From NCBI GenBank assembly GCA_016185245.1, contig JACPNZ010000007.1, positions 1-64,000 of the forward strand: a stretch of DNA of 64,000 nucleotides, in the 5' to 3' direction. This DNA is from Hyphomicrobiales bacterium (GTDB lineage: Bacteria; Pseudomonadota; Alphaproteobacteria; Rhizobiales; Aestuariivirgaceae). Shown here one piece after another: positions 517-7,819 of the stretch. The translations under genes and the position numbers were made by a program. Below the pieces are notes generated by a model that was not told the DNA's origin, made no database searches, and saw only the letters and a list, made by a program, of their open reading frames with translations. Positions within the stretch are counted from its first letter, which is position 1, and every line of letters starts with the position of its first letter.

Positions 517-1460
517 GCCTTCGCTCGTGAGGCGAGAGAAGGCTGTCGCGCCGGAGCCCAACGGGCGAAGGCGGGCCGGTTCCGCGAGCTTCGGCTCGGT
601 AAGCCCATCCATTATGAATACCCGGCATCCGGCCGGCGACCTAACCAGTTTCGCCGCTGAACAAGCGTGCGCAAGCGCTGATTGACATCGTGAATGAAGG
701 GACTTGCTTGTATTTTGCCCGCGAGCCGCGGGTTGTGGTGCTTGACCGCCCACAAACAGGCAAGTCGAAGCACAATAAGTCTTTCTATCGATGACCGTCC
801 GCCGGATTTCTTGCCGAGGTCCGGCATCTACCCAGATGGGCATTGATAATGAGAGCGATCAAGCGACTTAAGGGCATTTGGTGGATGCCTTGGCACTGAG
901 AGGCGATGAAGGACGTGGTACGCTGCGAAAAGTTACGGGGAACCGCGAACAGGTTTTGATCCGTAAATATCCGAATGGGGCAACCCCCAGCTTCGGCTGG
1001 ATCCTCACATGAATTCATAGTGTGAGGAAGCAAACCCGGGGAACTGAAACATCTAAGTACCCGGAGGAAAGGACATCAACAGAGACTCCGCGAGTAGTGG
1101 CGAGCGAAAGCGGATTAGGCCAATGTCACATGTGTAAGAACTGGAACAGGATGTGAAAGCCTGGCAACAATGGGTGATAGCCCCGTACAGGTAGAAAACA
1201 TGTGTGAATTCGAGTAAGGCGGGACACGTGCAATCCTGTCTGAACATGGGAGGACCACCTTCCAAGCCTAAGTACTCCTCAGTGACCGATAGCGAACTAG
1301 TACCGTGAGGGAAAGGTGAAAAGCACCCCGACGAGGGGAGTGAAAGAGCACCTGAAACCGAATGCCTACAAACAGTAGGAGGCCGCAAGGCTGACTACGT
1401 ACCTTTTGTATTATGGGTCAGCGACTTATGATTGACGTGCAAGCTTAAGCCGATAGGCGG

Positions 1461-1491
<31 letters not shown>

Positions 1492-1781
1492 AATTAGTAC
1501 GTTGATATAGACCCGAAACCAGTCGATCTAGCCATGGCCAGGCTGAAGGTGGGGTAACACCCACTGGAGGGCCGAACCGGTGTCTGTTGAAAAAGCCTCG
1601 GATGAGTTGTGGCTAGGGGTGAAAGGCTAATCAAACTGGGAAATAGCTGGTTCTCCAAGTACTATGCGGCAGTCACACGGTGGGTGCTAACGTCCATCGT
1701 GAAGAGGGAAACAACCCTGACCTACAGCTAAGGTCCCCAAATCGTGGCTAAGTTAGGAAGGATGTGAAGATCCCAAAACAA

Positions 1782-1812
<31 letters not shown>

Positions 1813-2446
1813 TAAAGAAAGCGTAACAGCTCACTGGTCTAAATAAGGGTTTTTGCGCCGAAAATGTATCGGGAATCAAGCCACGTACCGAAGCTTAGGG
1901 TGTGCTCCGCAAGGAGCACGCGGTAGCGGAACGTTCCGTAAGCCTGCGAAGGCGGACCCGTGAGGGCCGCTGGAGGTATCGGAAGTGCGAATGCTGGCAC
2001 GAGTAACGACAAACAGTGTGAGAGACACTGTCGCCGAAAGACCAAGGGTTCCTGCTTAAAGTTAATCTGAGCAGGGTGAGCCGGATCCTAAGGTGAGGCC
2101 GAAAGGCGTAACCGATGGCAACCAGGTTAATATTCCTGGGCTAGTGGAAGGTGACGAATGCAAGGAGTTGTCCGAGATTATTGGATTTCGAGGGCAACGC
2201 ATGCGTTCCAGGAAATAGCCTCCACATCAATCCGTACCCGAAACCGACACAGGTGGTCAGGTAGAGTATACCAAGGCGCTTGAGAGAACGACGCTGAAGG
2301 AACTCGGCAAATTACCCTCGTAACTTCGGGATAAGAGGGCCCCGTTGGTGGGCAACCATCGGCGGGGGGCACAGGCTAGGGGGTAGCGACTGTTTAGCAA
2401 AAACACAGGGCTCTGCGAAATCCAAAGATGACGTATAGGGCCTGAC

Positions 2447-2477
<31 letters not shown>

Positions 2478-2484
2478 GGTGCAA

Positions 2485-2538
<54 letters not shown>

Positions 2539-3261
2539 TTGCTTACGCGCCGCGAACGATCGCGGAAAATGCTAGCCTTAGTAAAACTGAACTATATGCG
2601 GGAAACTGCTCATACAGCCACGCGGTACTCGTCTGCGACTTTCGCAGGCAGTCAAAAGCCGCTGGACACGGGCACAATCCGCAGGAAAGGTCTCGTCTGG
2701 CACATCCGCCAAACGGGAAATCCTCAGAGACTTTATGTTCGGGAGGTGTGTTTTGCAGCTCGATACCCAATGGATCGTTGGCTTTGTCGACGGCGAGGGT
2801 TGTTTTCACGTCGGGGTAAATCCCAACGCGGAGATGACCGCAGGTTTTCAGGTTCTGCCTGAATTCACCGTTGTACAGCACCAGCGCGATCTGCAGATTT
2901 TGCATGCACTGAAGGCCCATTTCGGCTGCGGTGTGGTTCGCAGGAACCACGGCGAGCGGATGGCCTATCGGGTGCGTGGGCAAGATCATCTGTTGCGGAT
3001 CGTCATACCGTTTTTCATGAAACACCCGCTCAAAACGCGGAAGAACGTGGACTTCTTGAAGTTTCGCGACTGTCTTCTGCTGATCGAGAAGGGCGAACAT
3101 CTGACCGGCGAGGGCGTGGAGAAAATCCGGGCCATCGCGGCGAAGATGAATTGTGGAGCGGACATCCAATGGGACGGGAACGAAGAGCCGGAAGGTTCTT
3201 CGCTGTAGAACGCAGTTCAAGATAAAGTCCGTCCGGTCCAGAAAATGGACAGGGTCAAACG
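2539..3261 (+). mobile_element. Group I intron in 23S rRNA at E. coli L1931-equivalent site, carrying a LAGLIDADG ORF
   Basis: Splits the universally conserved 'taactataacggtcctaaggt|agcgaaattcc'. 5' exon ends in U, intron ends in G. P1: exon CUAAGGU with GCCUUAG (2575-2581). P10: GCU (2571-2573) with exon AGC (3262-3264). P4: UGCGG (2597-2601) with CCGCA (2679-2683). P7: GACUUU (2729-2734) with AAAGUC (3224-3229). P3: GAAC (2589-2592) with GUUC (2737-2740). P9: GUCCA/UGGAC (3236-3250). Confidence 0.94.
2753..3208 (+). CDS. LAGLIDADG homing endonuclease (single-motif) encoded in the intron
   Basis: ORF contains WIVGFVDGEGCFHV (LAGLIDADG variant). TTG start at 2753 is preceded by gggaggtg (2741-2748); the ATG at 2735 overlaps the intron R/P3 core and is less likely. 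Confidence 0.9.
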   Translation: MQLDTQWIVGFVDGEGCFHVGVNPNAEMTAGFQVLPEFTVVQHQRDLQILHALKAHFGCGVVRRNHGERMAYRVRGQDHLLRIVIPFFMKHPLKTRKNVDFLKFRDCLLLIEKGEHLTGEGVEKIRAIAAKMNCGADIQWDGNEEPEGSSL

Positions 3262-3308
<47 letters not shown>

Positions 3309-3381
3309 CGACTTCCCCACTGTCTCCAGCGTCGGCTCAGTGAAATTGAACTCCCCGTGAAGATGCGGGGTAATTGCGGTC

Positions 3382-3412
<31 letters not shown>

Positions 3413-3743
3413 GCTTTACACTGGCATTCGTGCCGGCATGTGTAGCATAGCTGGTAGGCTTTGAAGCCTGGGCGCTAGCTCAGGTGGAGCCGAAATGTGA
3501 AATACCAGCCTTGTTGACATGGATGTCTAACCGCGGCCCCTTATCGGGGTCCGGGACAGTGTATGGTGGGTAGTTTGACTGGGGCGGTCGCCTCCCAAAG
3601 AGTAACGGAGGCGTGCGAAGGTAGGCTCAGACTGGTCGGAAATCAGTCGTCGAGTGCAATGGCATAAGCCTGCCTGACTGCGAGACTAACAAGTCGAGCA
3701 GAGTCGAAAGACGGCCATAGTGATCCGGTGGTCCCACGTGAGG

Positions 3744-3792
<49 letters not shown>

Positions 3793-3821
3793 GATTCCCA
3801 AGAGTCCATATCGACGGAATC

Positions 3822-3862
<41 letters not shown>

Positions 3863-4005
3863 CGTCGTGAGACAGTTTGGTCCCTATCTGCCGTGATTGT
3901 TGGAGAATTGAGAGGATTTGTCCTTAGTACGAGAGGACCGGGATGAACACACCTCCGGTGGACCTGTTATCGCGCCAGCGGTACAGCAGGGTAGCTATGT
4001 GTGGA

Positions 4006-4037
<32 letters not shown>

Positions 4038-4212
4038 ACCCACCTCGAAACAATTTCTCCCTTGAGAACCGAGGAAGACGACCTCGTTGATAGGCCGGGT
4101 GTGGAAGGGCAGTAATGTCCGTAGCTTACCGGTACTAATCGTTCGAACGGCTTGATCGTTCTCATTTTCAATGTCCATCAAATCGATGGAAAGACTTGTG
4201 CTTCGCGCGAAT

Positions 4213-4517: not shown

Positions 4518-5144
4518 TCAGTCGGCCTTTTCGGCGCCGCCCTTGTCCTTCTTCACCTCGATCTGCACCGGGGCATAGCCCTTGGCGGTGACCTGGATAG
4601 TGAAGGTCTTGGCGTTCTGCGACGTGTGATAGATGGAGTTCGGGTTGTCGCGGATGTGGCCGGGCAAACCGCTGTCGTCGAGATTGACGTCGACGGTTGC
4701 GCCCTTGTCGATGGTCAGGCCGGGCAGCGGCTTGTAGTAGGCTTCGATCTTTCCGGTCACATCGTCCTTGAGGGAATAGAACATCGACAGATCGGTCAAG
4801 GTTTCGCCCGAAGTGTTGGCGATGGCGAGCTCGATATGGTCGGCGACGTCCTTCTTGGTCACCGGATCGAAATTGTTTTCCAGCTTGGCGGTAAAGGTCA
4901 GGGCGTTTGGCTTGCCGATCTGGGGGATGGGGTTTTCGGCTCTGGTGGGGTCCTTGTCGGCGAGATCGTTGACGCCGTCGCCGTCGGTGTCGGGATTTAG
5001 CGGATCGGTTCCCAACAGAGCCTCGGCGGCATCGGGCACGCCGTCGCCGTCCGAATCGGTGGCGGCCATGGCCGGCGGGGTTGCGGCGGCGAGTGCTGCC
5101 GCCAAGCCAATGGCAATGAGATGTCTTGACTGGAATATTGGCAT
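4518..5144 (-). CDS. Secreted protein with thrombospondin type 3 (Ca-binding) repeats
   Basis: Signal peptide [40 protein letters not shown]...[17 protein letters not shown]. Confidence 0.8.
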
Positions 5145-5145
5145 T

Positions 5146-6156
5146 CTACTGCTCCTTCGAGAGACGGGCGATATTGAGGGGGCGGGCAAAGAGATAGAGG
5201 ACGAGCCCGGCGAATATGCCGAGAAGCCACCAGAGGTCTGCCAGGCGATCTAGGATCACGTCGGCAAGGGGTTGGCCGTTGTAGATGTCCTTGATGCCGA
5301 GGACCGCGAAACTGAAGCGTTCGAAGTGCTTGGCGGGCGAGGCCTGTTCGATGTCGTCCCGGATCGTCTCATAGGTCGCGAACGACTTGAGGATTTCCTT
5401 TTCCTCGGGCTTGGCAATGCCGAGCTTGCGGAACACGCCGCCGGCGACCTGGTTGTCCGGGTCCATGGTATCGCCGATCTGCGGAGCGATGAGCACCAGG
5501 GTGAGCCAGACGGCGAAAGCCACCAGCAAGGCGGTCGGCAAGCGGGCGAAGCCCAGCGCCAGGATGAAGCCGAGCAGGAAGAAGCTGCCGACATAGAGGA
5601 TTGCCGCAGCGAAGACGATGGCGATGCGAAGCAGATCGGCGGCGCCCAGGCCGACGCCGCTGATGACGAAAAGGGCAAGGGCGCCCAAGGCGAATGTTGC
5701 CGCCAGGCCGGCAACTATGAGGACCATGTTTCCAGCAAGCTTGCCGGCGAGAAACGCTGTCCGACCCAGGGGGCGGGTCATGATCAGCATGAGGGTGGAA
5801 TGGCCCCGCTCGACCGCGGCGGCGCGGTAGCCGAGCACGATGCCAAGCACTGCCCCGATGATCTCCACGTGCTCGACGAACCCGCGCAGGAGCTTGAGCG
5901 GAAAGAAGGCCGGCGGTACCAGATCGTTGATCGACTTGCCGAGCGACAAGAGAAGATCCCGCGATTGGACGTAGGTGAGGTACTCGGCGTGCAGGGCGAT
6001 CGAGGAAACCGTCAAGGACACCATGGCCGCCAGAATCAGAAACCCGGTGAGCAGCGACAGCACATGAGTGCGAAGCGCATCGTGGATCTCCTTGCCGGCA
6101 ATCGTTGCAATCTGCGCCGGGCGACTAGTCACGATAGCCGCTCCGGCAGGCATCAA
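5146..6156 (-). CDS. ABC-2 type transporter permease
   Basis: Multi-[37 protein letters not shown] motif typical of ABC-2 permeases; adjacent to ATPase. Confidence 0.8.
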
Positions 6157-7081
6157 GGCGCGCGATGGCGACGATCAAAGCGCCGGCCAGTGCAAGATTG
6201 GCGAACACAAGGGATAGCATGGCCCCTCCGGCCGTTATGGTCGTTCCAGCGCCCGAAGTGACCTCGAGAATGGAGGCGGAAAGAAAGCGGTAGGATTCGG
6301 CGATGGACAGCGGTCCGAGAAGTGCCGACGTCACCGCGAAGAACGATCCCCCGGGAACTTCGAGATTGACGCTCTGTGGATTGAGTGCAGCCATCGGACC
6401 GATGTTGGCGGTGACTTGCGGAACGATGAAGGTCAGCGCCAGCCAGATGGTGACCGGCGTCAGCAGCGCCATCGATTCGCTGGCGAAGGCCGTCGCGCAG
6501 ATCGCGCCAAGCAGCCCGAATGCCAGCATGTACAGTGCCGCAACGCCGTAGAACTCGATCATGCCCAGCCAGATCGTGCCGTCAAGGGCCAGACCGGGAA
6601 GCAGCAACATGGTCAGAACATTGACCAGGCCCGCGCCGAGGAGAACGGCGACAACCGCCAGGACCAGAGCGCCGATCTTGCCGAGGGCAAGACCGATACG
6701 GCTTGCCGGCCGGCTGAAGACGAGCGGCAGGACCCCGGCCTTGCGATCGGAAGCTACCACCTGATGGCCCAATACGAGGGCCGCCAGCGCGCCGAGCAGG
6801 GCGACGTAGGTGACCATGTTGCGAAGCAGCGAAAGTGGCGGCATTTCTCCGACCGGATTGGCCGGCACGGGTTTGCCTTGCGCCTGAAACACCGGAACGG
6901 CCTTGGCGTAGATGGCATTCACGGTCGCCGTCGCCGACCAGCCGAGATATGCCGAAACCAGGACCATGGCGAAGAACAGCGCGGCGAGCAGAACCACGGT
7001 GCGGTCGCGCCAGCCGATTCTGGCGGCGAACATGGCCGACAGCATGGCGGTGGCCGGAGTTGAAAGCTTGCGCGTGGCCAA
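6125..7081 (-). CDS. ABC-2 type transporter permease
   Basis: DRKAGVLPLVFSRPASRIGLALGKIGAL; multi-TM; overlaps neighbouring permease. Confidence 0.8.
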   Translation of the reverse strand: MATRKLSTPATAMLSAMFAARIGWRDRTVVLLAALFFAMVLVSAYLGWSATATVNAIYAKAVPVFQAQGKPVPANPVGEMPPLSLLRNMVTYVALLGALAALVLGHQVVASDRKAGVLPLVFSRPASRIGLALGKIGALVLAVVAVLLGAGLVNVLTMLLLPGLALDGTIWLGMIEFYGVAALYMLAFGLLGAICATAFASESMALLTPVTIWLALTFIVPQVTANIGPMAALNPQSVNLEVPGGSFFAVTSALLGPLSIAESYRFLSASILEVTSGAGTTITAGGAMLSLVFANLALAGALIVAIARLDACRSGYRD

Positions 7082-7084
7082 GAG

Positions 7085-7819
7085 CTATGCCGCCGCGGCC
7101 GGGGTGAGCGATAAGTAGAGTTCCTCGAGCGTCTGGTCGTCTCCGAACCGCGCCAGGACGCCGGCGATCGTGTCGCGATAGGCAAGCCGGCCGTGGTTCA
7201 GTACCCCGATCGACGTGCAGGTCTTGGAGACTTCGCTGATCAGATGGGTATTCATGAAGATCGTCATGCCAAGCGTGCGATTGAGCTTCACGATGAGATC
7301 GCGCAGTGTCTTGATCCCCAGGGGGTCGAGACCGGAGGTCGGCTCGTCGAGAAACAGCACATCGGGGCGGTGCAAGATGGCCTGCGCCAGGCCGATCCGC
7401 TGGCGCTGACCCTTGGACATGTCGCCCACGCGCTTGGTCGCCAGTTCCGGGCAATCGAGAATCGCCAGAACCTCGCCGATGCGCTGCGATGGCTCCCTGA
7501 CACCCGACAATCTTGCAAAAAACAGCAGATTGTCTCGGGCCGTCATCGAGTCGTAGAGGCGGACGTTTTCCGGCACATAGCCGATATGTTGGCGCGCCTT
7601 CATGCTGTCCGCCACGACATCGCAGCCGCATATGCTGGCGCTGCCGGATGTAGGAGCGAGGAGGGTGGTCAGGATATTGATGGTCGTTGTCTTGCCGGCG
7701 CCGTTGTGCCCGAGAAAGCCGAAGATTTCGCTGCGGTCGATTTCGAGAGTTAAATTGTCGAGCGCGGCAAGACTGCCATAGCGTTTGCTCAGTCGATCGA
7801 TGCCGATTGCAGGGTCCAT
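7085..7819 (-). CDS. ABC transporter ATP-binding protein
   Basis: Walker A GHNGAGKTTT, signature SKGQRQRIGLA, Walker B VLFLDEPTSGLDP. Confidence 0.93.
   Translation of the reverse strand: MDPAIGIDRLSKRYGSLAALDNLTLEIDRSEIFGFLGHNGAGKTTTINILTTLLAPTSGSASICGCDVVADSMKARQHIGYVPENVRLYDSMTARDNLLFFARLSGVREPSQRIGEVLAILDCPELATKRVGDMSKGQRQRIGLAQAILHRPDVLFLDEPTSGLDPLGIKTLRDLIVKLNRTLGMTIFMNTHLISEVSKTCTSIGVLNHGRLAYRDTIAGVLARFGDDQTLEELYLSLTPAAAA

Follow-up and report, generated by a model that had tools for sequence, protein, structure and literature searches.

The window analysed here, a stretch of 64,000 nt from contig JACPNZ010000007.1 of a Hyphomicrobiales bacterium (assembly GCA_016185245.1), carries part of an rrn operon comprising the 3′ end of a 16S rRNA gene, within which the contig starts, followed by tRNA-Ile, tRNA-Ala, a 23S rRNA gene at 857–4159 (RF02541 match) and a 5S rRNA gene. 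On the 3′ side of the operon, the minus strand at 4518–7819 encodes a TSP3-repeat protein, two ABC-2 permeases and an ABC ATPase, a set of genes reminiscent of transporter clusters of the export or Nos type. The 23S gene is interrupted by an insert of 723 nt (2539–3261), located, as are all of the exon and intron features of the window described below, on the plus strand, and lying between ...GGTCCTAAGGT, which ends at 2538, and AGCGAAATTCC, which starts at 3262. The resulting 5′ and 3′ exons (857–2538 and 3262–4159) are delimited by the RF02541 match and by alignment to eleven 23S genes, and each contains an internal gap, at 1656/1657 and 3862/3863, respectively. Counting from Psi1911 and Psi1917, two modified bases in E. 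coli 23S, places the insertion after U1931, a known hotspot of the gene. Excision of the 723 nt generates a 78 nt exon junction (39 nt per side) that is identical in many intron-less proteobacterial 23S genes, and gives a spliced 23S of 2580 nt, as assembled. Amongst plasmid-borne 23S genes, the closest to that of the window is alphaproteobacterial. The original prediction, which had placed the element at L1931 of an alphaproteobacterial 23S gene, is therefore borne out on both counts, by the exact empty-site junction and the count of positions for the former, and by the 23S match and comparisons for the latter.

The insert displays the architecture of a group I intron. P1 is formed by the exon sequence CUAAGGU (2532–2538) and the internal guide sequence GCCUUAG (2575–2581), which pair at 7/7 positions and create a U.G at the splice site, whilst the strand GCU (2571–2573) pairs with the 3′ exon AGC (3262–3264) to form P10, and the intron ends with omega-G at 3261. 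There is no P2, as P1 (ending at 2581) and P3 (starting at 2587) are only five bases apart, with UAAAA between them. The catalytic core, consisting of P3, P4, P6, P7, P8 and P9, is present. P3 (2587–2592 with 2737–2742) and P4 (2597–2602 with 2678–2683) each form 6/6 pairs, and P5 (2607–2611 with 2670–2674; 5/5 pairs) bears a branched P5a/b-like extension, together spanning 2607–2674. A P6/P6a hairpin (2684–2723) is supported by RNA folding and by the Rfam alignment. The 5′ strand of P7 (2729–2736), which constitutes the guanosine-binding site, forms 8/8 pairs with the 3′ strand (3222–3229), that of P8 (2747–2758) forms 12/12 pairs with 3203–3214, G.U included, and the P9 hairpin (3236–3250) has 5/5 pairs. 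Each of the pairings previously drawn for this element (the 7 bp P1, P3, P4, P7, P9 and P10), as well as the intron-terminal G, is thus found in the sequence.

A targeted covariance search returned a single family, Intron_gpI, the entire model of which is matched at 2535–3252 (36.4 bits, E 1.5e-7). The match ends at G 3252, the terminal G being assigned to 3261 by exon continuity. Such a search had been proposed alongside the original prediction, and its outcome is divided: the match is full length, but its score falls under the Rfam gathering score of 50, and a default covariance scan of 9 kb did not report the intron. A homologous L1931 intron in a second genome (L003, described below) scores 55.4 bits, above the gathering score. 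Comparison with this intron, and with a further one at L1917 in the same genome, reveals one compensatory, two-sided change each in P4 (G-C to U-A in the L1917 intron) and P7, these three sequences being too few for statistical covariation. In P3, a one-sided change (U.G to C-G in L003) retains pairing, and changes also occur in P5 and P9. Taken with the pairing core helices and the splice-site P1 and P10, the whole-model match, albeit sub-cut-off, supports the assignment to group I, and the element is probably a self-splicing intron of this class.

The loop of P8 harbours an ORF (2753–3208), the start and stop codons of which fall within the P8 stem. Its product matches the LAGLIDADG_1 profile (E 6.5e-24) with a single, intact motif (IVGFVDGEG), as anticipated by the earlier claim of a LAGLIDADG ORF, and shares 59 % identity over 134 aa (E 2e-51) with PDB 5gkk, a putative homing endonuclease. 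Translation probably begins at TTG 2753, which is preceded by the ribosome-binding site GGGAGGTG, to yield a protein of 151 aa, rather than at ATG 2735, an alternative start at the edge of P7 that would yield 157 aa. The TTG is preferred because in L003 the counterpart of ATG 2735 does not share the reading frame of the enzyme, and because the L003 enzyme start aligns with TTG 2753. Relative to the L003 ORF, nucleotide changes number 42, 15 and 69 at the first, second and third codon positions, respectively, with a dN of 0.23 and a dS of 2.3 that is near saturation. This concentration at third positions and the difference between dN and dS indicate purifying selection on the endonuclease gene over at least part of its separation from the L003 gene. 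An AlphaFold model built from the alignment of these two sequences had a mean pLDDT of 40.8, which is too poor for use.

The only relative of the enzyme returned by a scan of 84,980 species genomes, which employed exact short peptide patterns and therefore reaches close relatives only, is that of L003 (JAKASJ010000031.1, MAG Proteobacteria bacterium YP1.bin44). The L1931 intron of this MAG (1528–2152) is alike in site, internal guide sequence, P10 (including the GCU-A-GCCUUAG arrangement) and core, and encodes a LAGLIDADG_1 protein that is 68 % identical; however, its P1 loop and its protein are shorter, and its host 23S is gammaproteobacterium-like, being nearest, amongst plasmid-borne 23S genes, to that of Methylomagnum, a gammaproteobacterium (86 %). 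The same 23S gene possesses two introns, where the window copy has that at L1931: the additional one, an ORF-less group I intron at L1917 (1239–1513), lies 14 nt 5′ of the L1931 intron of this gammaproteobacterial MAG.

With regard to the host lineage, the enzyme was found in none of the sampled genomes of the family (69), order (398) or class (385) besides the host itself, in agreement with the suggestion that such introns are uncommon in Alphaproteobacteria, and a sample of the phylum (399 genomes) contained one further weak, partial match (E 7e-4). Of the 69 family genomes, 10 show the uninterrupted site, as do 91 of 269 genomes of the order; six of these belong to the same genus as the host. 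Absence of the intron from relatives is well supported wherever this uninterrupted site is readable, and only loosely so for the remaining genomes, as many assemblies are without a readable 23S. Neither the enzyme nor the exact core pattern was found in viral contigs, and plasmid and phage records contained only distant proteins with <60 % identity to the enzyme. Two records labelled as Peribacillus plasmids, NZ_CP110133.1 (L053; GC content of 31 %) and NZ_CP110134.1, have LAGLIDADG genes at 11 and 4 places, respectively. Both could represent mitochondrial DNA of fungi, but a search of NZ_CP110133.1 for simple cox1 and cob motifs gave no match.

Group I matches as such were obtained in 41 of the 398 order genomes. 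When the best match in each of 20 of these genomes was inspected by eye, 19 resembled tRNA-gene introns, and none of the 20 adjoined 23S signatures; ARAGORN was uninformative on intron-split tRNAs. The remaining genome (L004, G231:C36) contains a pair of strong group I introns separated by 1.2 kb, likewise not adjoining 23S signatures. As this search used strict filters, under which the intron of the window itself was missed, it cannot prove absence from the order.

Introns of this kind have been described in distant hosts. Simkania, Synechococcus and Thermotoga, along with algal and amoebal organelles, are listed as hosts of L1931 introns that encode single-motif LAGLIDADG enzymes (PMC1995217), in line with the occurrence in Thermotoga and Simkania stated with the original prediction. 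Compared by description, those of Thermotoga, Simkania negevensis and Synechococcus resemble the present intron in site, in length (654–700 nt) and in their single-motif LAGLIDADG proteins of 143–167 aa, but their hosts belong to other phyla; for Synechococcus, an IC1-like core is also described, and its L1917 and L1931 introns are both devoid of P2, as observed here (PMC1995217). In CPR bacteria, the 23IS7 intron at position 1931 encodes I-ShaI, which cuts its own insertion site and forms homodimers (PMC11270868). Again by description, these CPR introns share the group I class, one LAGLIDADG_1 domain and position 1931, with the difference that the host is a candidate-phyla bacterium. Closer in taxonomy is the IOLA bacterium, which is placed with Alphaproteobacteria and has three 23S introns, two of them with homing endonucleases, although its genome, unlike that of the present host, is extremely reduced (PMC8155191). 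Given the Thermotoga, Simkania, Synechococcus, CPR and organellar L1931 introns, together with the 23S introns of IOLA, the kind of element is already known and the present case is not quite the first in its class; what is unusual is the lineage of the host.

The two gaps in the host 23S copy were newly noticed in this analysis. The 1656/1657 junction lacks a domain II segment of ~110 nt (E. coli ~816–925), and the 3862/3863 junction a segment of exactly 60 nt (E. coli ~2531–2590) that belongs to the peptidyl-transferase centre and contains the A-loop. Both segments are present in 11/11 comparison genes, a set drawn from the same genus, the same family, other Alphaproteobacteria, Gammaproteobacteria and E. 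coli. Both gaps are blunt, and no microhomology is visible at 3862/3863. The missing 60 and ~110 nt were not found elsewhere in the assembly, the ~110 nt query being taken from a relative and used without a positive control, and the whole genome assembly has one LSU match. The ~120 nt directly preceding the first gap (1537–1656) show 72–85 % identity to the host genus versus 82–95 % to other lineages, suggesting a chimeric join or recombination; no clear switch of lineage was seen beside 3862/3863 with more references. Outside the gaps, 5 of 1559 otherwise invariant sites deviate, which is as few as in intact relatives, and a simple decayed pseudogene is rejected on account of this conservation.

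In its assembled form, the 23S copy could not give rise to a working ribosome, and any statement that this copy produces a working 23S is weakened by the loss of conserved segments. The most likely cause of the two gaps is assembly error, which is favoured over the second likeliest, a young pseudogene, because the copy is otherwise undecayed. The latter would mean that a real intron resides in a defective rRNA copy with two deletions, whilst intact, unassembled copies make the ribosomes. Two blunt gaps in indispensable parts of 23S are as expected in that case, and the single LSU match, together with a contig start inside 16S, indicates that other rRNA copies may be unassembled. Despite this, a defective copy is considered unlikely, as the near absence of deviating sites is not the drift expected of a pseudogene with two deletions.

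A chimeric assembly, in which the intron derives from another organism in the sample and was joined via the ultra-conserved flanks, is similarly improbable. The flanks shared exactly with most bacteria extend over only ~44–55 nt, so that a short-k metagenome assembly could join a neighbour's intron; in addition, there are two further irregular junctions in the 23S gene, one of them beside the stretch that resembles other lineages, and all sampled relatives are without the intron. Patchy presence is, however, normal for homing introns, and the flanks shared with a close relative (G002) measure 114 and 69 nt, with no foreign signature at the insert.

RNase-removed intervening sequences are present in other 23S helices of Proteobacteria, which lends some precedent to a non-catalytic element that is excised without ligation. 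Coxiella serves as an example of 23S intervening sequences (PMC4990558). For the present insert such an explanation is very doubtful, in view of a group I fold with splice-site P1, P10 and omega-G, a site in the ribosome core instead of a peripheral hairpin, and an endonuclease of the intron type. That the gaps are real, and that separate RNA pieces from other loci provide the A-loop and domain II segments in trans, is scarcely credible.

The element is thus very probably a mobile group I intron, IC1-like without P2, inserted after 23S position 1931 and homing by means of its LAGLIDADG_1 enzyme, with the gaps most likely being assembly errors. The site, the fold signature, the intact ORF, on which purifying selection has acted, and a homologue at the same site form the basis for this reading; splicing, cutting and homing are extrapolated from studied relatives, and a location in the functional 23S of the host is presumed. 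In the precursor rRNA, the intron would fold through P1–P10, and guanosine bound in P7 would attack after U1931, at the U.G of P1. The freed 5′ exon would then attack after omega-G 3261, joining the exons into an uninterrupted 23S. A homodimeric LAGLIDADG_1 endonuclease, encoded by the ORF in the P8 loop, is predicted to cut intron-less L1931 alleles, whereupon repair would copy the intron into them.

Judged by its sequence, the intron itself is convincing; it is ordinary in kind and unusual in host. The missing segments of the surrounding gene caution that rRNA genes of draft genomes can be wrong where readers would trust them. As organellar 23S introns share the site, bacterial L1931 introns such as this bear on the origin of those in organelles. 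That the nearest relative found comes from a different proteobacterial class suggests inter-class transfer. Provided that the intron is indeed the host's own, a non-reduced alphaproteobacterial lineage, with a genome of 3.5 Mb, would join the scattered bacteria that carry L1931 introns.
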